From positions 62,001 to 126,000 of the forward strand of contig CM022378.1 of the NCBI GenBank assembly GCA_011800155.1: a DNA stretch of 64,000 nucleotides, given 5' to 3'. The notes under the pieces were generated by a model. The model did not search any database. It saw nothing but the letters and a program-made list of their open reading frames with translations, and was not told the origin of the DNA. How positions within the stretch are numbered: the first letter of the stretch is position 1; each line of letters starts with the position of its first letter. Below are positions 11,257-64,000 of this stretch, in pieces. Source of the stretch: Flammulina velutipes. Its lineage: Eukaryota > Basidiomycota > Agaricomycetes > Agaricales > Physalacriaceae. Made by a program: the position numbers and the translations under genes.

Positions 11257-14200
11257 GCAGTTTGCTAGCAAGGTCTGGTACTGCACGCCATGACATGCCA
11301 TCCACACTTCACTAGGACTGTTCAATTTGCTGGCAAGGTCTGGCACCACACGCCATGACATCTACGCTTCACTAGGACTGCTCAGCTGACTGTTCAGTCT
11401 GCTGGCAGGGTCTGGCACTGGACGCTATGACATCTACGCTTCACTAGGACTGCTCAGCTGAGTTTTCAGTCTGCTGGCAAGGTCTGGCACCGCACGCCAT
11501 GACATCTGCGCTTCACTAGGACTGCTCAGCTGAGTGTTCAGTTTGCTGGCAGGGTCTGGTACTGCACGCCATGACATGCCATCCACACTTCACTAGGACT
11601 GTTCAGTTTGCTGGCAAGGTCTGGCACCACACGCCACGACATCTACGCTTCACTAGGACTGCTCAGCTGAGTGTTCAGTTTGCTGGCAGGGTCTGGCACT
11701 GGACGCCATGACATCTGCGCTTCACTAGGACTGCTCAGCTGACTGTTCAGTCTGCTGGCAGGGTCTGGCACTGGACGCCATGACATCTGCGCTTCACTAG
11801 GACTGCTCAGCTGAGTGTTCAGTTTGCTGGCAAGGTCTGGCACCGCACGCCATGACATCTGCGCTTCACTAGGACTGCTCAGCTGAGTTTTCAGTCTGCT
11901 GGCAAGGTCTGGCACCGCACGCCATGACATCTGCGCTTCACTAGGACTGCTCAGCTGAGTGTTCAGTTTGCTGGCAAGGTCTGGCACCGCACGCCATGAC
12001 ATCTACGCTTCACTAGGACTGCTCAGCTGAGTGTTCAGTTTGCTGGCAGGGTCTGGTACTGCACGCCATGACATGCCATCCACACTTCACTAGGACTGTT
12101 CAGTTTGCTGGCAAGGTCTGGCACCACACGCCACGACATCTACGCTTCACTAGGACTGCTCAGCTGAGTGTTCAGTTTGCTGGCAGGGTCTGGCACTGGA
12201 CGCCATGACATCTGCGCTTCACTAGGACTGCTCAGCTGACTGTTCAGTCTGCTGGCAGGGTCTGGCACTGGACGCCATGACATCTGCGCTTCACTAGGAC
12301 TGCTCAGCTGAGTGTTCAGTTTGCTGGCAAGGTCTGGCACCGCACGCCATGACATCTACGCTTCACTAGGACTGCTCAGCTGAGTGTTCAGTTTGCTGGC
12401 AAGGTCTGGCACCGCACGCCATGACATCTGCGCTTCACTAGGACTGCTCAGCTGAGTTTTCAGTCTGCTGGCAAGGTCTGGCACCGCACGCCATGACATC
12501 TGCGCTTCACTAGGACTGCTCAGCTGAGTGTTCAGTTTGCTGGCAAGGTCTGGCACCGCACGCCATGACATCTACGCTTCACTAGGACTGCTCAGCTGAG
12601 TGTTCAGTTTGCTGGCAGGGTCTGGTACTGCACGCCATGACATGCCATCCACACTTCACTAGGACTGTTCAGTTTGCTGGCAAGGTCTGGCACCACACGC
12701 CATGACATCTACGCTTCACTAGGACTGCTCAGCTGAGTGTTCAGTTTGCTGGCAGGGTCTGGCACTGGACGCCATGACATCTACGCTTCACTAGGACTGC
12801 TCAGCTGAGTGTTCAGTCTGCTGGCAGGGTCTGGCACTGGACGCCATGACATCTGCGCTTCACTAGGACTGCTCAGCTGAGTGTTCAGTTTGCTGGCAGG
12901 GTCTGGCACTGGACGCCATGACATGTCATCCACACTTCACTAGGACTGTTCAGTTTGCTGGCAAGGTCTGGCACCACACGCCATGACATCTACGCTTCAC
13001 TAGGACTGCTCAGCTGAGTGTTCAGTTTGCTGGCAGGGTCTGGTACTGCACGCCATGACATGCCATCCACACTTCACTAGGACTGTTCAGTTTGCTGGCA
13101 AGGTCTGGCACCACACGCCATGACATCTACGCTTCACTAGGACTGCTCAGCTGAGTGTTCAGTTTGCTGGCAGGGTCTGGCACTGGACGCCATGACATCT
13201 GCGCTTCACTAGGACTGCTCAGCTGACTGTTCAGTTTGCTGGCAGGGTCTGGTACTGCACGCCATGACATGCCATCCACACTTCACTAGGACTGTTCAGT
13301 CTGCTGGCAAGGTCTGGCACCGCACGCCATGACATCTACGCTTCACTAGGACTGCTCAGCTGAGTGTTCAGTTTGCTGGCAGGGTCTGGTACTGCACGCC
13401 ATGACATGCCATCCACACTTCACTAGGACTGTTCAGTTTGCTGGCAAGGTCTGGCACCACATGCCATGACATCTACGCTTCACTAGGACTGCTCAGCTGA
13501 GTGTTCAGTTTGCTGGCAGGGTCTGGCACTGGACGCCATGACATCTGCGCTTCACTAGGACTGCTCAGCTGAGTTTTCAGTCTGCTGGCAAGGTCTGGCA
13601 CCGCACGCCATGACATCTACGCTTCACTAGGACTGCTCAGCTGAGTGTTCAGTTTGCTGGCAGGGTCTGGTACTGCACGTCATGACATGCCATCCACACT
13701 TCACTAGGACTGTTCAGTTTGCTGGCAAGGTCTGGCACCACACGCCATGACATCTGCGCTTCACTAGGACTGCTCAGCTGACTGTTCAGTCTGCTGGCAG
13801 GGTCTGGCACTGGACGCCATGACATCTGCGCTTCACTAGGACTGCTCAGCTGACTGTTCAGTCTGCTGGCAGGGTCTGGCACTGGACGCCATGACATCTG
13901 TGCTTCACTAGGACTGCTCAGCTGAGTTTTCAGTCTGCTGGCAAGGTCTGGCACCGCACGCCATGACATCTGCGCTTCACTAGGACTGCTCAGCTGAGTG
14001 TTCAGTTTGCTGGCAAGGTCTGGCACCGCACGCCATGACATCTACGCTTCACTAGGACTGCTCAGCTGAGTGTTCAGTTTGCTGGCAAGGTCTGGCACCG
14101 CACGCCATGACATCTGCGCTTCACTAGGACTGCTCAGCTGAGTTTTCAGTCTGCTGGCAAGGTCTGGCACCGCACGCCACGACATCTACGCTTCACTAGG

Positions 14201-16534
14201 ACTGCTCAGCTGAGTGTTCAGTTTGCTGGCAGGGTCTGGCACTGGACGCCATGACATCTGCGCTTCACTAGGACTGCTCAGCTGACTGTTCAGTCTGCTG
14301 GCAGGGTCTGGCACTGGACGCCATGACATCTGCGCTTCACTAGGACTGCTCAGCTGAGTGTTCAGTTTGCTGGCAAGGTCTGGCACCGCACGCCATGACA
14401 TCTACGCTTCACTAGGACTGCTCAGCTGAGTGTTCAGTTTGCTGGCAGGGTCTGGTACTGCACGCCATGACATGCCATCCACACTTCACTAGGACTGTTC
14501 AGTTTGCTGGCAAGGTCTGGCACCACACGCCATGACATCTACGCTTCACTAGGACTGCTCAGCTGAGTGTTCAGTTTGCTGGCAGGGTCTGGTACTGCAC
14601 GCCATGACATGCCATCCACACTTCACTAGGACTGTTCAGTTTGCTGGCAAGGTCTGGCACCACACGCCATGACATCTACGCTTCACTAGGACTGCTCAGC
14701 TGAGTGTTCAGTTTGCTGGCAGGGTCTGGCACTGGACGCCATGACATCTACGCTTCACTAGGACTGCTCAGCTGAGTGTTCAGTTTGCTGGCAGGGTCTG
14801 GCACTGGACGCCATGACATCTGCGCTTCACTAGGACTGCTCAGCTGAGTGTTCAGTTTGCTGGCAGGGTCTGGTACTGCACGCCATGACATGCCATCCAC
14901 ACTTCACTAGGACTGTTCAGTTTGCTGGCAAGGTCTGGCACCACACGCCATGACATCTACGCTTCACTAGGACTGCTCAGCTGAGTGTTCAGTTTGCTGG
15001 CAGGGTCTGGCACTGGACGCCATGACATCTGCGCTTCACTAGGACTGCTCAGCTGAGTGTTCAGTTTGCTGGCAGGGTCTGGTACTGCACGCCATGACAT
15101 GCCATCCACACTTCACTAGGACTGTTCAGTCTGCTGGCAAGGTCTGGCACCGCACGCCATGACATCTACGCTTCACTAGGACTGCTCAGCTGAGTGTTCA
15201 GTTTGCTGGCAGGGTCTGGTACTGCACACCATGACATGCCATCCACACTTCACTAGGACTGTTCAGTTTGCTGGCAAGGTCTGGCACCACACGCCATGAC
15301 ATCTACGCTTCACTAGGACTGCTCAGCTGAGTGTTCAGTTTGCTGGCAGGGTCTGGCACTGGACGCCATGACATCTGCGCTTCACTAGGACTGCTCAGCT
15401 GAGTGTTCAGTTTGCTAGCAAGGTCTGGCACCGCACGCCATGACATGCCATCCACACTTCACTAGGACTGTTCAGTTTGCTGGCAAGGTCTGGCACCACA
15501 CGCCATGACATCTACGCTTCACTAGGACTGCTCAGCTGAGTGTTCAGTTTGCTGGCAGGGTCTGGCACTGGACGCCATGACATCTGCGCTTCACTAGGAC
15601 TGCTCAGCTGACTGTTCAGTTTGCTGGCAGGGTCTGGTACTGCACGCCATGACATGCCATCCACACTTCACTAGGACTGTTCAGTCTGCTGGCAAGGTCT
15701 GGCACCGCACGCCATGACATCTACGCTTCACTAGGACTGCTCAGCTGAGTGTTCAGTTTGCTGGCAGGGTCTGGTACTGCACGCCATGACATGCCATCCA
15801 CACTTCACTAGGACTGTTCAGTTTGCTGGCAAGGTCTGGCACCACATGCCATGACATCTACGCTTCACTAGGACTGCTCAGCTGAGTGTTCAGTTTGCTG
15901 GCAGGGTCTGGCACTGGACGCCATGACATCTGCGCTTCACTAGGACTGCTCAGCTGAGTTTTCAGTCTGCTGGCAAGGTCTGGCACCGCACGCCATGACA
16001 TCTACGCTTCACTAGGACTGCTCAGCTGAGTGTTCAGTTTGCTGGCAGGGTCTGGTACTGCACGTCATGACATGCCATCCACACTTCACTAGGACTGTTC
16101 AGTTTGCTGGCAAGGTCTGGCACCACACGCCATGACATCTGCGCTTCACTAGGACTGCTCAGCTGACTGTTCAGTCTGCTGGCAGGGTCTGGCACTGGAC
16201 GCCATGACATCTGCGCTTCACTAGGACTGCTCAGCTGACTGTTCAGTCTGCTGGCAGGGTCTGGCACTGGACGCCATGACATCTGTGCTTCACTAGGACT
16301 GCTCAGCTGAGTTTTCAGTCTGCTGGCAAGGTCTGGCACCGCACGCCATGACATCTGCGCTTCACTAGGACTGCTCAGCTGACTGTTCAGTCTGCTGGCA
16401 GGGTCTGGCACTGGACGCCATGACATCTGCGCTTCACTAGGACTGCTCAGCTGAGTTTTCAGTCTGCTGGCAAGGTCTGGCACCGCACGCCATGACATCT
16501 GCGCTTCACTAGGACTGCTCAGCTGACTGTTCAG
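11257..16534. repeat. 5.3-kb minisatellite of 72-bp units with 77- and 60-bp variants
   Basis: Tandem array whose basic unit runs CTTCACTAGGACTGCTCAGC... to ...GACATCTGCG, 72 bp. A second pattern pairs a 77-bp unit (ending ATGCCATCCACA) with a 60-bp unit lacking the 12-bp CTCAGCTGAGTG portion. Roughly 70 units are present and differ at a few diagnostic sites. Three private variants (CACGTCATGA at 13676 and 16061, a CTGTGCTTC unit at about 13897 and 16282, ACCACATGCC at about 13456 and 15841) recur at the same 2385-bp offset, showing a large internal duplication. The last unit ends in CTGACTGTTCAG directly before the rhodanese exon. Confidence 0.95.
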
Positions 16535-16911
16535 TACTGAGAAATCTATCACAGAATAGCTATCTTATTGATGTACGCGAACCGGACGAAGTAGCCCAAG
16601 GGATGATTCCATCCGCCGTCAACCTCCCTCTATCTACTTTGGGATATGCTTTGAACCTCAACGACGCCGATTTTAAGAAGACATACGGATTTGACAAGCC
16701 CAAAAGGCACCAGGAAGTGACCTTTTATTGTCGAAGTGGCAAACGTAGTTCCACCGCGAGCGATGTTGCTGAACGGAACGGGTATACAAGGTGAGTGCAA
16801 CTATAGGGAAAGTGTGGTATGGACTCATCAAGTACTAGGGTTCTCAATTACAAGGGATCGTGGCTTGAATGGACCAAGAATGAGGTTGAAGGAGCTGAGA
16901 AAACACAATGA
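16535..16911 (+). CDS. Rhodanese-domain sulfurtransferase, 3' exons only
   Basis: The exon at 16535-16790 encodes YLIDVREPDEV, IPSAVNLPLSTL and the active-site loop FYCRSGKRS, with the catalytic cysteine in place. A 48-nt intron (16791-16838) leads to a last exon with NYKGSWLEWTKNE and stop at 16909-16911. This is a single-domain thiosulfate:cyanide sulfurtransferase of the small, often mitochondrial, fungal type. Its first exon is not visible: the coding frame begins directly after the CAG that ends the minisatellite. Either the array lies in a very long first intron or the gene's 5' end has been lost. What remains carries the whole catalytic half. Confidence 0.8.
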
Positions 16912-53263: not shown

Positions 53264-56238
53264 ATGTCGGGAAATTATTCTCGTCGTCGTTCACGCTCTC
53301 CTCGAGCTCGAAGATCCAGTCCTCCAGCATCCTCCTTGCTCAGCGCTGGTTCAGACAGTGTCCAAGTTCCTCGTCGTCGTGCACAAAGTCCCTCACGTCG
53401 TCCGGCGGCGAAACGATTCGGTTTGACGGTCCCGCTAAATGAACGAAAACATGTAGGTGAGTCTCTGCTCGCTGTATAAGAGATTGCTTTGAACACATAG
53501 AGACAGGCCCGTTCGATTTCGAAGAGAAATATCCCGAAGATGCGACCTACGATGAACTAGGACCTAATGCGCGCGCCTGGCGAGCAAACATGGACGAATG
53601 TGAAGTATTCGACAACGACATGGTCACCGAAGCTCGCGATGGTCTCGATTTACTGCTTGTTTTTGTGCGTAACTCATCTCTTCGTTCAAACTGTCTGCTA
53701 AATGGTCTTCAGGCCGGTTTATTCTCAGCTGTGCTCACTACTTTCGTCGCCCAGACATCGCAGTCACTGTCCAACAATTTCTCTGCCGTCTCCACGTCAC
53801 TTTTGCTCGAAATAGTCACTATTCAACGCGCACAGGTCAATGGTGCATCCATCGACAATATTCCCCTCAGCGAAATGACCTCCGGACCGTCCAGCTTTGA
53901 CGTGTGGGTCAACGCGCTCTGGTTCAGCAGCCTTGCGCTCAGCTTGGGCACAGCGCTAATGGCCGTCCTCGTCAAACAATGGCTTTATCAGTACATGGCA
54001 ATGTCATCTGGCACTGCTCGAGACCGTAGCCTCATTCGCCACTATCGCTTCACTGGACTGAAGAAATGGCGCGTCCTTACCATCATTAGCATCCTCCCCA
54101 TCATCCTTCATGTAGCGCTGGGCGTCTTTCTGGCCGGCATAGTCGTCTTCCTCATACCACTCAATGTTCCCCTGGCAAGTGTTATTGGCTTGATTACCCT
54201 CGTCTTCTACTCCATGTATGCCATATCGAACATTCTTCCCCTCGTTTACGCCCAGTGTCCTTATCGAACACCATTTTCGGACGTCCTCAGTGTCTTGATA
54301 TCTTCTGGCGGAGCGCTGCTAGCGCGCATATTCAACCATGCATCCACCGCGCGTTCCGCGACCAGACATGCTTTCATGACGCTGAAGGAAGCCGAGCGCC
54401 TCGCTGCCACAAACAGCAAAGTCGCAGAAGACATTGCCTGCGATGCTTTGCTTTGGCTATATCAAATGACGTCCAACCCACCGACTAAGAGTGTCGTACT
54501 ACAATCCATAGGATGCCTTTCCAACAAGGTTTCCGACAGATTGGTCATGGTCATGCCAGACTTACAGGAGACCTTAGAAGAATCTCTTGAGAGCTTCGAA
54601 ATTGTTTGGTCGATCATATCGGGTCACGAAAGTCGTGTAGAGAGGCTTCTACGCGCCGAGATGCACTTTGACCACCTGCGATCATCCCGTCTCTTCTGGC
54701 GTTTGAACCCAGAGGCGTTCGAGCCACCGTTCCGGTGCATGACTTCGATTCTAACCCGATCACGGGGAGTGGGCTACGTGGATTCGGCGGACTCAACGAT
54801 CAGGTGGCGGTGTCAAGATCTGCTCGCGCACATAGTTCAAGAGTACGACGCCAAGAAGCCCGTCCTTCTACCCCCCGTACTTTGGCGACAGTTATTGTCC
54901 CAGGATGATGTTGTCCTATCCAGTCCTGATAACCCACTGCCTAAATCATACGACGACACATACATCTCCCTCTGCCGACTTGCCCTTCAGAACTTGACTA
55001 ATGACGAGAGGGAAGATGTACCGTTTTCCGGAGGGGTACCCATCACCCATGGCACTGTTCCGCTGCTACAGCTCGTCAGTGACATTGTCCTTCATTCGAC
55101 GAGCCGAAACCAGCCTCTCGAATCTGAGCCACTCCAACGCTTGCTCACGATCAACGACTTTATCACCTCGTATCTAACCTCGAGTGGTTCGTACGCACTC
55201 ACGGCAGTCGATGCCATGTCCGTCCTGCGTGACGTATGGATACACATTCAGAGCATCCCCATTCGCTCTCCAAATGATTCCCAAGCCCTTCGTCGTCGCG
55301 CGGAAAGTGTCGCACTGAAAGTCTTTGCTGATGGATGGCTGGACGCGCATAACCAGAGCGAAGCATATGCCGCAGTCTTGGAGGAAACCTACTCCCGTTA
55401 TGTGGACGGATACCACTCCGTCCCCAGCCCAGAGCTCTTCACCAAGTTACTTGCGGACTTGTATATGTCGCTCGGGAGCATATCCAGATTCGGTCGATTT
55501 GCCTCCCTCGTTTTGTCGACAGCGTTTCACTCCCGCGGTGATATGGACGAACAGACGATCTACTATACCCTCTTTTGCGAATCTTCGCTTTTTTCCACTC
55601 GAACGACGGTTTCAGCGTCTGCTTGCCAGAAAAGCCTTTACCGCGTTGCGGACGCGTTCGTAACTGGCCTCGCTACTCTATCCCCGGACATCGTTCTCCG
55701 ATGTATGGAATACCTTAGCAGCGAGCCGGATCGTATATATACCATCTGTCGGATCCTTGCTCTGGGAGGCCCAAGATATCTCTTTTCGGGAGAGCACAGC
55801 AGGCAGAAACTAGTGGCTTTCGCCCGTCTTGATCCCAGGAGCCCAGTCTGGAAGGACCGTGCACGTTTCATGGGCGCCGATCCTCGAGACTGGACGAGGA
55901 GCTGGATAACGAAAAACTCCTTTCCGCTATCAAGGCCAAAGTTCAGGCCGGGCTTGGGGTTCTGGATGAGTTCTTTGCTTCACTCGATGATGTGTGTTTG
56001 TTTTGCTTTAGCGTGCGGATTTTTGAGATCTGATACTCTTCTCTAGGCGTCTCCTTCGTTTGTAGAAACGGCTCCTCCACCACCACTGGTGCAGCAGAAT
56101 GAGGGAATCTCCCCGTGGACGCGGGTCAGACAAGCCATTTCGGTCGTCGGAGCTTTCAGGACATCTTCGCCCAGAGGAAGGGCAGACGCAGAAGACCGTA
56201 TCGAACTGGGTTTACAGCCCATACCTACTTACGCTTGA
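53264..56238 (+). CDS. DUF6535-family membrane protein
   Basis: Exon 1 (53264-53456) encodes an arginine/serine-rich N-terminus (RRRSRSPRARRSS). A 44-nt intron gives ETGPFDFEEKYPEDA in exon 2, then a third exon from 53713. The domain reads DMVTEARDGLDLLLVF, AGLFSAVLTTFVAQTSQSL, VWVNALWFSSLALSLG, VLVKQWLYQYMAMSSGTARD, and two membrane segments (ILPIILHVALGVFLAGIVVF; VIGLITLVFYSMYAI). This is the DUF6535 signature of agaricomycete proteins, typically with 3-4 membrane helices near the N-terminus and a long helical cytoplasmic tail. Near 55890 the apparent frame shifts to LDEELDNEKLLSAIKAKVQA, and a last exon from 56047 ends at 56238. The shift may be a real lesion or an unseen intron. Function unknown. 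Confidence 0.8.
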
Positions 56239-56253
56239 GCCTGGGACGGCCAG

Positions 56254-57420
56254 TTGATGATTTTCCCCCCTACTTTCGCAATACATCCCTCCATATTTAC
56301 TCGCATAATAGATGTCTTAGCTTGTGCTGCCATCACTGCCCCGGGCCAGGTGGCCACCGCTGTGGTATCGATCAAGGGCACCAGCACGCTGGAAACCACT
56401 ATCTATATATCGTTCAACCAAGGCGCCCTTCCCCAGTCAGACGTCGCAAGCCATATCGAGAGTCTTTTTTCCACCCTCCGCGGTATAATCGTCAGTCCTG
56501 AAACTGTCAACACGCCCGGTATCAAATCAACTTTCTCTCAACTAGCGCAGTTGATGTACAAGTTCGGGTGGAAACTCTGGGAGTATTATCTTTTCAAGTG
56601 GATGATGTATATCCCATCAGCCCAAGCGGTCGTGGCCCAAGCAAAGAAGGATGCGCTGAGTGGGGCGGAAACGGCTCTGACTGTGGACCAGTGCGAAACT
56701 CTTTCTTCTCTACTAAAGGACATCTCGGACATAGGAGAGTATATGTCTGTTGCCTCGAAGGAGAACGTGATTCGTGCGATGACAGCTATCGGCGACAAGT
56801 GGCGGAATGCGGGTTACATTGACGCCGAGTTAAAGAATATGGTAGGGGAAGTCATTCCTAGAGCGAGCATTCTCATCGAGCTGGAGCGGCTCATCGCCAA
56901 AAGGGGCAAGTATTTCCCCCTGCAGCACTGGATAAACAAGATTGCATCGTTCCATGTCCATGGCCTCATCCTACTCGAGCTCCAGCTCGTACACTCCAAA
57001 CGGCTGAAACCCTTTCTATCTGGATCTTTCACCGTCGTGGTCGTCCCTTCCCCTCCACCTCACCCTGGCCTTGGTATTCGACTCAACCGCGAGACCTTCA
57101 CCCATATCGTCACTGCCATCAGAGAGGAATTCAGCGACAAACCGATCAAAAGTAACGTCCTACTCGGGAACCCACTTCTTGACGAGATGACGAACAATTT
57201 TATCGTTTCCGTTCTACCCTCAAGCGGGGAAGCCGCCCACGCTCATCCTTATGTGCACTCTGAACTCACAATGCTACAGTATTTGGTAGCGCATGGCATC
57301 GACTTTCTATCCTACTTTGGGGTCTCCAAGCTCCCATGCACAAGCTGCGAACTCTACTTGGACGCATTCGGTGAGGTTACCGGGCGCTTTATTTGCACTC
57401 ATGGTACCCTACGTCGATAA
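56254..57420 (+). CDS. OTT_1508-like deaminase-fold protein
   Basis: A 388-codon frame. The N-terminal 330 residues are mostly helical and unrecognised. The C-terminus carries a cytidine-deaminase-type zinc site: HSELTMLQYL (His335, Glu337) followed by YFGVSKLPCTSCELYLDAF (Cys362, Cys365). H-x-E plus P-C-x2-C with the phrase GVSKLPC is characteristic of the OTT_1508-like deaminase clade, which in bacteria occurs as toxin modules and in fungi as large lineage-specific families of unknown substrate. Cytidine or nucleic-acid deamination is inferred from the fold only. The start is 15 bp after the stop of the DUF6535 gene in the same orientation, so the two may be a single spliced transcript or fusion. 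Confidence 0.68.
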   Translation: MMIFPPTFAIHPSIFTRIIDVLACAAITAPGQVATAVVSIKGTSTLETTIYISFNQGALPQSDVASHIESLFSTLRGIIVSPETVNTPGIKSTFSQLAQLMYKFGWKLWEYYLFKWMMYIPSAQAVVAQAKKDALSGAETALTVDQCETLSSLLKDISDIGEYMSVASKENVIRAMTAIGDKWRNAGYIDAELKNMVGEVIPRASILIELERLIAKRGKYFPLQHWINKIASFHVHGLILLELQLVHSKRLKPFLSGSFTVVVVPSPPPHPGLGIRLNRETFTHIVTAIREEFSDKPIKSNVLLGNPLLDEMTNNFIVSVLPSSGEAAHAHPYVHSELTMLQYLVAHGIDFLSYFGVSKLPCTSCELYLDAFGEVTGRFICTHGTLRR

Positions 57421-58051: not shown

Positions 58052-61000
58052 CTATATTCCGCAGCTACGTCCAGATATCTCTAATCTCAGAAAACCGGCC
58101 TGCTCGAACCAGCTCGGATATACTGCATCTTGGTAAGAAAATAGTAATGGGCCAGCATTTTGCTTCACTAACCGTAAGATTGGCGGGGGGTATTTCAGCC
58201 TGTCCAGGTCCACCAGAGGCTGTAGCCTCAACACCTTCACCGAGAAGTTTTTGCTGAATTTCCTTAAGTAGCGGTCGGCGAAGAAGTTGGCTGGCAGGCC
58301 AGTAGGGGGACGACTGTCATGGTCTTTTCGTTTCAGAGAACGATCACGCGCCTCGGGCATATGACCTTGTGTTGCTGTGGCTTTGGCGTCTTGGTGATGA
58401 CGGACGGCGAGGTGAAGGTCGTCCAATACACGAAAGAACTCCGTTACTCGGGCGTCCTTATTACGCCAATTGGGTTCCAGAACAATGAGCCTGTCACCCA
58501 GGCGTGCATCTCGCTCGTCGTCGCTGTCAGCGAGATATGTTGTGGCCTCTAGGATCTCTGCATGGAACTCCAATCCGGGAAATAATTTGGCCACCTTCAT
58601 CCGTCGACAGTGACACTAGAAGCAATGTATGTTCAGAGAGTGACCGAAAGTACAGGATTCAACGTACCGAGCGCCGCCTCTGTGTCGTGCTACTTTCCTT
58701 CCGCTTTTCCAATGTTTGGAGTTCGTTATTTTCTTCCGTCCGGAGTGCTTTTGAGAATGAGGCTCGTCTATAACTGTAGTGCGTCCTGACGAGATCAGAT
58801 AGCGCCTTGCGTTTCCATTTACCATAGAAGGCTGTGTCAAATTCAGAATCGGATAAGATCTGCGTCACAATGTCGTCGACGGCCTTACGCGACCAGTTGG
58901 ATGACATGTCTCCTACCATGTCGAAAGCAAGACACCTAGGCTCGGGGCCACCGATTCCTTTCTCGTTGAATCGAGCGACTTCACGGCTTGGGGCCTCGGA
59001 CTGGGCCCAATCACGTATAAACTCGCGAATGAATCGCTACATTAGCACGTCAGTATACACGGTCTTGGTAGTTGCAGGTCTTTACCTGTGTTATTGTCTT
59101 GAAAGGATTGTATGGCTTCTTGTGCTGAGAAGATGGCTCAGGTTCCCCGTCAGATTCCTCATCAGCCTCGGCTCCTGGTTCAACGTCTTGGTCAAAATCA
59201 TCGTCTACTCGCATGTTAGACTTTGACGCAGTAGAACATGTTGGCTGAGTAGGAATATCCTCCTCGTGATGCCTTGAAGCGGATCTATGATGGATTCCTG
59301 GCGGTCCTACGTTCTTATTAATTCTGTCGTGATTGTGGAATGAGATATGCAGACCTTGACGGCTCGTCGCCCTTTCACCACGAGGCAGGTTTCTACCTAA
59401 GGGCGGAAACGGCAGTTGAGAAGCCCCGTATTGAGAGGCGAGGCATGGCGCGTTGACATCTACAGGACAGCGATGAGGTATAGTCCAAGAATTGACGAGA
59501 TTGACACACCGCTGGGCAGATTGGTATTGCTGGGTATGATAGGATACATTCTATGCTTTTCTTTGGCAACATCAGGCCCTGGTAAGTCACGAGGAGTTGC
59601 GCGCATTTGATTGGTGTCTACAGATCAGTTGTAATTGAGATACCATTGATAAATCATGAGAGCAACGTACCACAAGGTTTGCTGGCACGCGTGCTTGAGG
59701 GCATCTTTGACTTTCCTTTGGCAGTATCACGCCCAGGTTCAGGATGAGATGGCTTAGGCGTGACGGTCGGGCGTCGTTGATTGGCGTCTATCAAGCAGTC
59801 ATCAGCGAGATATTGATAGGATTCATGAGGGACGTACCACTAGGCTGGCTGGCATGCGTGCTTGAGGGCACCTTTGGCTTTCCTTTGGCAGTATCACGCC
59901 CAGGTTCAGGATGAGATGACTTAGGCATGACGGTCGGGCGTCGTTGATTGGCGTCTATCAAGCAGTCATCAGCGAGATATTGATAGGATTCATGAGGGAC
60001 GTACCACTAGGCTGGCTGGCATGCGTGCTTGAGGGCACCTTTGGCTTTCCTTTGGCAGTATCACGCCCAGGTTCAGGATGAGATGACTTAGGCATGACGG
60101 TCGGGCGTCGTTGATTGGCGTCTATCAAGCAGTCATCAGCGAGATATTGATGAAATTCATGAGGGACGTACCACTAGGCTGGCTGGCATGCGTGCTTGAG
60201 GGCACCTTTGGCTTTCCTTTGGCAGTATCACGCCCAGGTTCAGGATGAGATGACTTAGGCATGACGGTCGGGCGTCGTTGATTGGCGTCTATCAAGCAGT
60301 CATCAGCGAGATATTGATGAAATTCATGAGGGACGTACCACTAGGCTGGCTGGCATGCGTGCTTGAGGGCACCTTTGGCTTTCCTTTGGCAGTATCACGC
60401 CCAGGTTCAGGATGACATGGCTTAGGCGTGACGGTCGGGCGTCGTTGATTGGCATCTACAGGGCGGATTATAGTAAGATAGGGTTGGTAACTGAGAGAAA
60501 GATATACTAGAAATTGGATTTGCTGTGCGCGGTGGTGGGACCAGGTAGTCAGAGTCAGAATCGGATCGAGCTTCGTCAACAGTAGACAGAACATTTGTAT
60601 GTATTGTAGGCTGAAAGTGACGGGGGGTGGGCATCGGGGTATGAAGCTGGTTACTTGTCGGGCGAGAATTAACATGCGTAGATTTCGTTGGCACCGGTTT
60701 CATCAATCTGGCGTAACCGAAGGGGTTGGCAGCTAGTGATGTAAATCCTGGAGCAACTAAAGCAAGAGTGAGAAAAAAAATTACACAGGTGAAAAAAAGG
60801 ATACCTCGTTTAGGGGGAGTGGATACTGGAGTAGGGAGGCTGGATGGTCGGCTGCCGATGGGTGATCGCACCTGCATCTCATCCTCGTCATCACTGGAGC
60901 CTGGAAATGGGGTCAGCAGCTGTAGCTGTGTGGACGAAAGAAACAAACGAGGGATTGGCGAGCCTAGTACTGCCACTGGGTGATTTATATCAGATGCTGC

Positions 61001-64000
61001 AATAAAATTTCATGAGAGAACAGCGGCGTCCAGCAGAGCGACATTGCTCACCGTCGCCTGGTACTATGGCATCGGAACAATATGCTGTCAGACTGTGAGG
61101 GTGGAGATATAATATGGCCTACGAGAGACGTACGTTCTGGCACATAACCTTCGTCGCCCATGGATGAGTCCACCTGCATTGTTTCCTCGTCGTCACTCGA
61201 GCCGGGAGATGAAGTAAATGTTGGCAGCATCGAGGATGGAAGCGACAAACCCGTCACCTCTCTGCGGCTGGCAAATAGCGAGCCCCGCTCTGCTGTTGGG
61301 TGAATTTGGTCAGATGCTACAGCAAGAGCTGATTAGCCCGAAGCAGCGACCTGGCTATACGACATTGCTTACTGCCATCCGGTACTGAAGTGTCGATGTG
61401 AAATGCTGCCCAGTTGTCAGAGCCGAGATATGCAGCGCCGTGCGAGAGACGTACGTTCCGGCAGTTCATCTTCACTGCCCATGGGCGATCCCACCTGCAT
61501 TTCATCCCCATCCTCAACTGAGCCTAGTGATGTTGTCAATTCCCGTAACATGGTCAGTCGCGGGGGACGAACTAGAGGTCTCTTCATCGTCAGCTAGTGG
61601 GGAGCCGTACACCAGTTCGGGATCATCATGGTCGGATGCTGTGATAGGAGATTATTGGAGGTACTAGCAATGCGATGTTGCTTACCATCGTCTGGTACTA
61701 TAGCGTCGATGTGAAATGCTGCCCAGTTGTCAGAGTCGAGATATGCAGCGCCGTGCGAGAGACGTACGTTCCGGCAGTTCATCTTCACTGCCCATGGGCG
61801 ATCCCACCTGCATTTCATCCCCATCCTCAACTGAGCCTAGTGATGTTGTCAATTCCCGTAACATGGTCAGTCGCGGGGGACGAACTAGAGGTCTCTTCAT
61901 CGTCAGCTAGTGGGGAGCCGTACACCGGTTCGGGATCATCTTGGTCGGATGCTGTGATAGGAGATTATTGGAGGTACTAGCAATACGATGTTGCTTACCA
62001 TCGTCTGGTACTATAGCGTCGATGTGAAATGCTGCCCAGTTGTCAGAGTCGAGATATGCAGCGCCATGCGGGAGACGTACGTTCCGGCAGTTCATCTTCA
62101 CTGCCCATGGGCGATCCCACCTGCATTTCATCCCCATCCTCAACTGAGCCTAGTGATGTTGTCAATTCCCGTAACATGGTCAGTCGCGGGGGACGAACTA
62201 GAGGTCTCTTCATCGTCAGCTAGTGGGGAGCCGTACACCGGTTCGGGATCATCTTGGTCGGATGCTGTGATAGGAGATTATTGGAGGTACTAGCAATACG
62301 ATGTTGCTTACCATCGTCTGGTACTATAGCGTCGATGTGAAATGCTGCCCAGTTGTCAGAGTCGAGATATGCAGCGCCATGCGGGAGACGTACGTTCCGG
62401 CAGTTCATCTTCACTGCCCATGGGCGATCCCACCTGCATTTCATCCCCATCCTCAACTGAGCCTAGTGATGTTGTCAATTCCCGTAACATGGTCAGTCGC
62501 GGGGGACGAACTAGAGGTCTCTTCATCGTCAGCTAGTGGGGAGCCGTACACCGGTTCGGGATCATCTTGGTCGGATGCTGTGATAGGAGATTATTGGAGG
62601 TACTAGCAATGCGATGTTGCTTACCATCGTCTGGTACTATAGCGTCGATGTGAAATGCTGCCCAGTTGTCAGAGTCGAGATATGCAGCGCCGTGCGAGAG
62701 ACGTACATTCCGGCAGTTCATCTTCACTGCCCATGGGCGATCCCACCTGCATTTCATCCCCATCTTCAACTGAGCCTAGTGATGTTGTCAATTCCCGTAA
62801 CATGGTCAGTCACGGGGGACGAACTAGAGGTCTCTTCATCGTCAGCTAGTGGGGAGCCGTACACCGGTTCGGGATCATCATGGTCGGATGCTGTGATAGG
62901 AGATTATTGGAGGTACTAGCAATGCGATGTTGCTTACCATCGTCTGGTACTATAGCGTCGATGTGAAATGCTGCCCAGTTGTCAGAGTCGAGATATGCAG
63001 CGCCATGCGGGAGACGTACGTTCCGGCAGTTCATCTTCACTGCCCATGGGCGATCCCACCTGCATTTCATCCCCATCCTCAACTGAGCCTAGTGATGTTG
63101 TCAATTCCCGTAACATGGTCAGTCGCGGGGGACGAACTAGAGGTCTCTTCATCGTCAGCTAGTGGGGAGCCGTACACCGGTTCGGGATCATCATGGTCGG
63201 ATGCTGTGATAGGAGATTATTGGAGGTACTAGCAATGCGATATTGCTTACCATCGTCTGGTACTATAGCGTCGATGTGAAATGCTGCCCAGTTGTCAGAG
63301 TCGAGATATGCAGCGCCATGCGGGAGACGTACGTTCCGGCAGTTCATCTTCACTGCCCATGGGCGATCCCACCTGCATTTCATCCCCATCCTCAACTGAG
63401 CCTAGTGATGTTGTCAATTCCCGTAACATGGTCAGTCGCGGGGGACGAACTAGAGGTCTCTTCATCGTCAGCTAGTGGGGAGCCGTACACCGGTTCGGGA
63501 TCATCATGGTCGGATGCTGTGATAGGAGATTATTGGAGGTACTAGCAATGCGATGTTGCTTACCATCGTCTGGTACTATAGCGTCGATGTGAAATGCTGC
63601 CCAGTTGTCAGAGTCGAGATATGCAGCGCCATGCGGGAGACGTACGTTCCGGCAGTTCATCTTCACTGCCCATGGGCGATCCCACCTGCATTTCATCCCC
63701 ATCCTCAACTGAGCCTAGTGATGTTGTCAATTCCCGTAACATGGTCAGTCGCGGGGGACGAACTAGAGGTCTCTTCATCGTCAGCTAGTGGGGAGCCGTA
63801 CACCGGTTCGGGATCATCTTGGTCAGATGCTGTGATAGGAGATTATTGGAGGTACTAGCAATACGATGTTGCTTACCATCGTCTGGTACTATAGCGTCGA
63901 TGTGAAATGCTGCCCAGTTGTCAGAGTCGAGATATGCAGCGCCGTGCGAGAGACGTACGTTCCGGCAGTTCATCTTCACTGCCCATGGGCGATCCCACCT
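58052..64000 (-). CDS. Exon-array gene with tandem 39- and 56-residue repeats, 5' end outside window
   Basis: The gene runs leftwards from beyond 64000. Its first visible part is a tandem array of three-exon units (61524-64000), followed by diverged units (to about 60880), an array of five single-exon units (59671-60455), and then unique exons: an acidic linker with DDDFDQDVEPGAEADEESD, RFIREFIRDWAQSEAPSREV, FNEKGIGGPEPRCLAFDMVG, SRKAVDDIVTQILSDSEFD, KWKRKALSDLVRTHYSYRRA, and finally FHAEILEATTYLADSDDERD, ending near 58052. Repeats are serine-, acidic- and proline-rich and probably disordered; the C-terminal half looks globular and helical. I do not recognise the family, though the C-terminal part seems conserved-type. 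All inspected introns are about 47-50 nt with GT-AG ends. Confidence 0.65.
59671..60455 (-). repeat. 167-bp exon-intron tandem repeat (5 exons of 117 nt)
   Basis: Five exons end exactly 167 bp apart: 59671-59787, 59838-59954, 60005-60121, 60172-60288, 60339-60455. Each is 117 nt (39 codons), enters and leaves in phase 1, and is separated by a 50-nt intron GTACGTCCCTCATGAA...TGATAG. The encoded unit contains HPEPGRDTAKGKPKVPSS and HASQPS. A decayed sixth copy follows below 59620 (PGPDVAKEKH). Confidence 0.9.
60456..61523 (-). repeat. Diverged older units of the three-exon repeat
   Basis: Exon-A-like sequences recur at about 60902 (SSDDEDEMQVRSPIGS), 61203 (SSDDEETMQVDSSMGDEG) and 61523 (EDGDEMQVGSPMGSEDE), spaced about 300-320 bp, with substitutions and indels relative to the homogeneous array. 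They look like older members outside the recently amplified block. Confidence 0.75.
61524..64000 (-). repeat. 313-bp tandem unit containing three exons and three introns
   Basis: Seven full units (boundaries at 61836, 62149, 62462, 62775, 63088, 63401, 63714) and a partial eighth that runs off the window. In the unit ending at 61836, exon A is 61768-61836 (69 nt), intron 49 nt, exon B 61686-61718 (33 nt), intron 47 nt, exon C 61573-61638 (66 nt), intron 49 nt. The sum is 313 bp, with 168 exonic nt (56 codons). All introns are phase 1 with GT and AG ends. Units are nearly identical, differing at a few sites. Confidence 0.95.

Follow-up and report, generated by a model that had tools for sequence, protein, structure and literature searches.

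A predicted fungal gene with two tandem arrays of whole exon-intron modules

Gene model and the two arrays

The window analysed here comprises 64,000 nucleotides (bases 62001-126000 of contig 13, abbreviated C13) of a 38.1 Mb assembly in 23 contigs, and positions below refer to this window unless another sequence is named. Its last part carries, on the minus strand, a predicted gene defined by a manual model together with a blind parse, with an in-window portion at 58052..64000 and a continuation to 64748 (C13:126748). Two neighbouring open reading frames are found on the plus strand, one assigned to DUF6535 (53461-56046) and one with an OTT_1508-like deaminase domain (56239-57420). DUF6535 is an agaricomycete family, and the genome holds at least 147 matches to it, with the best candidates only being scored.

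The manual model runs on the minus strand from 64748 to 58052, where the stop codon ends, and has 45 exons and 44 introns, giving 1,503 codons without an internal stop. The introns are 47-58 nt long and are delimited by GT and by CAG or TAG; introns 1-42 are all in phase 1, the last two (43-44) are in phase 0, and every one of exons 2-42 has a length divisible by three. Since the lengths of 41 of the 44 introns are not multiples of three, their removal is needed for the frame to hold. Introns 5, 34, and 35, of 48 nt each, leave the frame open even when retained, which means that more than one model is possible at these places. The start of the model is a putative ATG at 64748, and at least 50 codons upstream of it are open, with no other in-frame ATG among them, which makes the start uncertain and a further 5' exon possible.

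The first array of the gene (array 1; 61381..64000, minus strand) consists of near-identical 313-bp units and was reported by Tandem Repeats Finder at 61381-64000 with a period of 313, 8.4 copies, and 98% matches. It extends beyond the window end, to about 64011-64027, and in the assembly it totals eight full units and the first part of a ninth. The order within a unit is exon A (69 nt), an intron of 49 nt, exon B (33 nt), an intron of 47 nt, exon C (66 nt), and an intron of 49 nt; in unit 8, for example, exon A is at 61768..61836 (phase 1), exon B at 61686..61718, and exon C at 61573..61638, all on the minus strand. The eight full units all have predicted introns with GT..AG ends and junctions in phase 1. 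The predicted exons of one unit sum to 168 nt (56 residues) between phase-1 borders, so that gain or loss of a unit is frame-neutral. The earlier note on this DNA had described seven full units and a partial one in the window, with these exon and intron lengths, this phase, and this neutrality to the frame, all of which were found again; counted from exon A, the full units in the window occupy 63714-61524, with the partial one above them. Its figure of 21 or more micro-exons in a row is right about the existence of the run, and the count can now be given as 26 (A, B, and C exons, model exons 6-31, the last of them partly alike). In a search of the whole assembly, no further copies of array 1 were found, its units being present at this locus only.

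The array described in the earlier note is real, but its scope was wider than supposed, as it passes the window end and shares its gene with a second exon-intron array. Array 2 (59618..60455, minus strand) lies 3' of array 1 in the same predicted gene and is built from an unrelated module with a unit of 167 bp. It has five phase-1 exons of 117 nt (39 codons each), each then followed by an intron of 50-53 nt, and with this exon length a change in unit number preserves the frame. A diverged sixth unit (59460..59617, minus strand) follows, with an exon of 108 nt (model exon 42) and an intron of 50 nt. No other site with the array 2 repeat was found in a whole-genome search. The gene ends in a unique C-terminal part formed by exons 43-45 (374, 369, and 564 nt; 58052..59459, minus strand), which amounts to about 435 codons and contains the last two introns, those in phase 0.

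Exchange among units and drift at the array edges

Units 6 and 7 of array 1 are identical across 313 bp, and the 21 pairs among units 2-8 show a mean of 3.4 differences per 313 sites; the variation within these units affects 4 of the 168 exon sites and 5 of the 145 intron sites. Four unit sites are informative, and four of the six pairs of such sites show all four combinations, with the four-gamete violations lying between unit sites 78/83 and 164/208. The unit variants thus occur in recombinant combinations, which calls for exchange or recurrent mutation within array 1, and the exchange among units suspected in the earlier note is supported by these violations as well as by the identical pair. 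The near-identity stops within exon A of unit 1 and within exon B of unit 9, as would be expected of unequal exchange taking place inside a gene.

Diverged copies flank the near-identical units on both sides. Unit 10 (60901..61202, minus strand), with exons of 69, 33, and 48 nt and introns of 49, 55, and 48 nt, keeps GT..AG in all three introns despite its divergence. Its exon C is 18 nt shorter, a multiple of three, and two of its introns have changed in length by +8 and -1 nt. Identity in its exons A, B, and C is 48/69, 23/33, and 27/48 (98 of 150 aligned positions in sum), and in its introns 32/49, 31/46, and 26/48 (89 of 143 aligned positions), and of the 22 codons that are changed in its exons A and B, 15 encode another residue. 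The residue-level constraint on array 1 appears to be weak, with exons and introns diverging at similar rates. In array 2, unit 5 is identical at 109/117 exon and 37/48 intron positions, and unit 6, with an exon shorter by 9 nt, at 74/99 and 32/45, about equal likeness in the two compartments.

On the other side, the relic above unit 1 has an exon C of 45 nt (21 nt shorter) and keeps the ends of its intron 3. The one loss of a splice site is found in unit 9, where the acceptor of intron 3 has CG in place of AG and where exon C is accordingly fused to exon A of unit 10 in the model as exon 32 (183 nt; 61134..61316, minus strand). The remnant (61203-61316) is in frame and stop-free, so its retention keeps the frame; this copy of intron 3 looks exonised and may be a case of intron loss by splice-site decay. 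With this exception, the diverged units keep their splice sites, and their exon lengths shift by multiples of three, both of which would fit a coding and spliced array.

Here it is proposed, with a probability of about three in four, that the locus is a protein-coding gene, that it belongs to an agaricomycete-like fungus, and that it became longer as entire exon-intron modules were duplicated in tandem. Any module lying between phase-1 introns could be duplicated or deleted by unequal exchange without harm to the frame or to the pairing of splice sites. Two modules would have been duplicated separately, one with three exons (313 bp, 56 residues) and one with a single exon (167 bp, 39 residues), and exchange or conversion would keep the central copies alike while the edge copies drift. 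The transcript of such a gene would be spliced as drawn, its protein would be made, and the number of units would be expected to vary.

The low residue-level constraint and the lost acceptor of unit 9 would also suit a different origin, with the array as a minisatellite, non-coding or pseudogenic, that captured a piece of a former gene and whose frame is open only because the units are recent copies. Another array on the contig lends some weight to this, since it has intron-like motifs without an open spliced frame. It lies outside the window (C13:140745-146034, that is, L010:7745-10000 + L015:1-3034), measures 5.3 kb, and is a mixture of 166- and 144-bp units, with 34 copies of an intron-like element (GTGAGT...ATTGCAG) between segments of 113 and 90 nt; once it is spliced, between 27 and 47 stops interrupt each of the six frames. 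In the predicted gene, by contrast, the open frame extends across the diverged units on either side, array 2, and about 435 unique codons, and the diverged units retain the frame and, bar one, the splice sites, which makes a minisatellite origin improbable.

Chance expectations, strand and splicing

A circular parse of the 313-bp unit was made under a relaxed branch-site rule, and random segments for comparison were taken from the same 291 kb of contig 13 that were scanned for nearby arrays. A stricter branch-site rule, the first to be tried, rejected intron 2 and left the unit unparsed, and the rule was loosened after that. Under the relaxed rule, a circular parse with three introns and without stops exists for the minus strand of the unit; the plus strand has none. 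A three-intron parse was obtained for 0 of 3000 dinucleotide shuffles of the unit and for 22 of 3000 random segments, and a parse of any kind for 27 of 3000 and 196 of 3000, respectively. For the 167-bp unit of array 2, some parse was found in 130 of 3000 shuffles and in 266 of 3000 genomic segments; such parses are common by chance, and that of array 2 is therefore not striking by itself.

The scan for nearby arrays covered the 291 kb on both strands with consensus units of period 110-560 in at least 2.4 copies. Besides the two arrays of this gene, parses were returned for a 144-bp row at C13:144820 and for 144/284-bp rows at C13:207654-208373. Neither was kept as an exon-intron array, the former being part of the 5.3-kb array that is stop-rich once spliced and the latter lying just past the end of an open reading frame, judged by eye to be outside a gene.

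The whole gene was also parsed blindly by dynamic programming under the relaxed branch-site rule, with the donor rule relaxed in addition, as it was for the antisense parse described below. This gave 37 minus-strand introns, 36 of them identical to introns among the 44 of the manual model, with 35 introns in phase 1 followed by two in phase 0, and a score of 3275; the best of 40 shuffles run with this penalty reached 1004. Introns 1-5, 31, 34, and 35 of the manual model were missed, and one intron was placed differently. With strict donors, 28 introns were obtained and the score was 1899 against a maximum of 857 in 30 shuffles (penalty 20). Shuffled tandem units matched the score of array 1 in 4 of 300 cases at a penalty of 20, 3 of 300 at 40, and 90 of 300 at 60; repeated parses come readily from tandem DNA, so array 1 alone is weak evidence, and the argument is carried by the way the frame goes on into the diverged units, array 2, and the unique C-terminal part. 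A score above 3275 was reached by four of 70 other strand-stretches, which had 0, 0, 0, and 2 introns, and since stretches with few introns outscore the locus, the parse score reflects coding length and not architecture. The minus strand from C13:140001 gave a parse of 31 introns with a score of 1169.

Coding by the opposite strand is very unlikely. Relaxed donors do allow a plus-strand parse with 8 introns, 2,276 coding nt, and a score of 2036, and most units contain a plus-strand open reading frame of 110 aa; however, the introns of this antisense gene would measure 59-61 nt, seven of the eight would begin with the donor GTACAC, its parse ends near the array edges (61337-64098), and the plus strand of the unit cannot be parsed when the donor rule is stricter.

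Of the 903 joins between a donor and a later acceptor that exons 1-43 allow, 902 preserve the frame and create no stop at the junction, the sole failing join being that of exon 1 to exon 3, which makes TGA. Loss or gain of a unit or skipping of an exon would thus rarely break the frame. The same openness could be taken to mean that the introns are real, but that units are skipped freely in the RNA, or junctions other than those drawn are used, with no single protein as the result. This reading is compatible with the proposed gene and, taken for itself, is doubtful. It gains from the identity of units 6 and 7, which leaves little local sequence by which the spliceosome could tell them apart, and from a parse with an intron 3 of 55 nt that is also open. 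Set against it are the introns of 47-58 nt, which on general knowledge suit intron definition; this mode is usual in fungi and favours the joining of neighbours. For the gene grown by module duplication, it is suggested, tentatively, that it may be indifferent to errors of recombination and splicing, because 42 consecutive introns share phase 1 and 902 of 903 joins are open; one locus could then give graded proteins, with the lengths of their acidic and basic arms varying at both the DNA and the RNA level.

Predicted protein, relatives and known systems

The predicted product of array 1 has 448 residues, with no K/R and 152 D/E (19 D/E per unit), and that of array 2 has 195 residues, with 37 K/R and 14 D/E. 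The first 100 predicted residues include 23 K/R and 9 D/E, the N-terminus being basic (MQKNKKHKSRVRD...) if the start codon, a guess, is right. A surface protein, one of two roles mentioned in the earlier note, is not favoured by this basic N-terminus, the lack of a signal peptide evident by eye in it, and the purely acidic array 1. The composition looks more like that of a regulatory protein of nuclear or chromatin type. As a hypothesis from composition, the product may be a nuclear regulatory protein in which the number of units would tune the length and charge of its arms, each 56-residue unit adding about 19 negative charges to an acidic arm and each 39-residue unit several positive ones to a basic linker.

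No Pfam family matched the predicted protein, including its unique C-terminal part, no solved structure matched, and no paralogues were found in the genome, for the C-terminal part even at E values up to 10. An AlphaFold model of exon 45 alone has a mean pLDDT of 37 and was set aside. The C-terminal part presumably resembles unnamed agaricomycete hypothetical proteins. The sole public relative found is a protein of 182 aa (P0001), identical at 181 of 182 positions to the last exon (58052-58615); as this match comes from another data set, the 3' end is no invention of the assembly. P0001 starts at a Met inside the last exon, as would be expected of a protein taken from unspliced DNA. It carries the precomputed label PF26792.1, and it matched no Pfam family in a searched set that was without PF26792.1; a search of open-licence papers for this label found nothing either. 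Two further protein searches scored no other public relative, whether a spliced version or an annotated one; the database seems to be poor in fungal proteins, so this absence says little.

Excerpts of published work describe several systems of related organisation. In human LPA, the kringle IV type 2 VNTR consists of tandem whole exon-intron units, which make up to 70% of the coding sequence; each unit measures about 5.6 kb and combines an intron of mostly 4 kb with a pair of kringle-encoding exons, mostly of 160 and 182 bp (PMC11201333). The present arrays are like it in having near-identical tandem units of whole, here predicted, exons and introns, and unlike it, as far as the excerpt goes, in their unit of 313 bp with three micro-exons, introns below 60 nt, low-complexity acidic peptide, and second independent array. 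In Tetrahymena, LRR genes contain arrays of 90-bp exons with an extreme bias to a single phase, in thousands of genes, and exon duplication and unequal crossing over are among the causes given for them (PMC6564038). Tandem exons of fixed length and one intron phase are common to both; however, those described in this excerpt are in phase 2 and encode leucine-rich repeats, whereas here there is phase 1, exons of 69/33/66 and 117 nt, no LRR, and one gene.

In Schistosoma, tandemly repeated exons of 81 bases are reported, along with micro-exon genes whose proteins are secreted and whose introns measure 100 to almost 5000 bp (PMC10526429). The predicted gene resembles those micro-exon genes, as excerpted, in its many short exons, mostly multiples of three, and differs in its introns of 47-58 nt and in having no signal peptide evident by eye. 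The aphid bicycle and megacycle genes, a fast-evolving family of putative effectors, have many small internal exons nearly all in phase 2 (PMC9168663); small internal exons of one phase are shared, in phase 1 here, and the excerpt does not describe the aphid genes as a near-identical DNA array, in contrast to the near-identical units here. Internal tandem repeats that change the structure of human genes are, by its excerpt, the subject of PMC2812944. No fungal precedent was found in open-licence papers among the matches listed. LPA, the LRR genes of Tetrahymena, and schistosomes already illustrate the principle, from which the predicted gene departs in its scale, its acidic and basic peptides, its phase, and its two independent arrays.

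If the gene is real, fungal introns can border a coding minisatellite, and two unrelated modules bounded by phase-1 introns have been amplified separately in one gene. The locus would then offer a compact setting in which to ask if intron phase allows an array to grow, if charge is tuned by the number of units, and how the spliceosome copes with a row of some 26 small exons that are nearly identical. Loci of this kind may defeat automatic gene models.

The same contig also carries two large arrays of related 72-bp units in opposite orientation, one in the window (11258-16535), in which no coding parse was found, and the other at L009:8015-10000.
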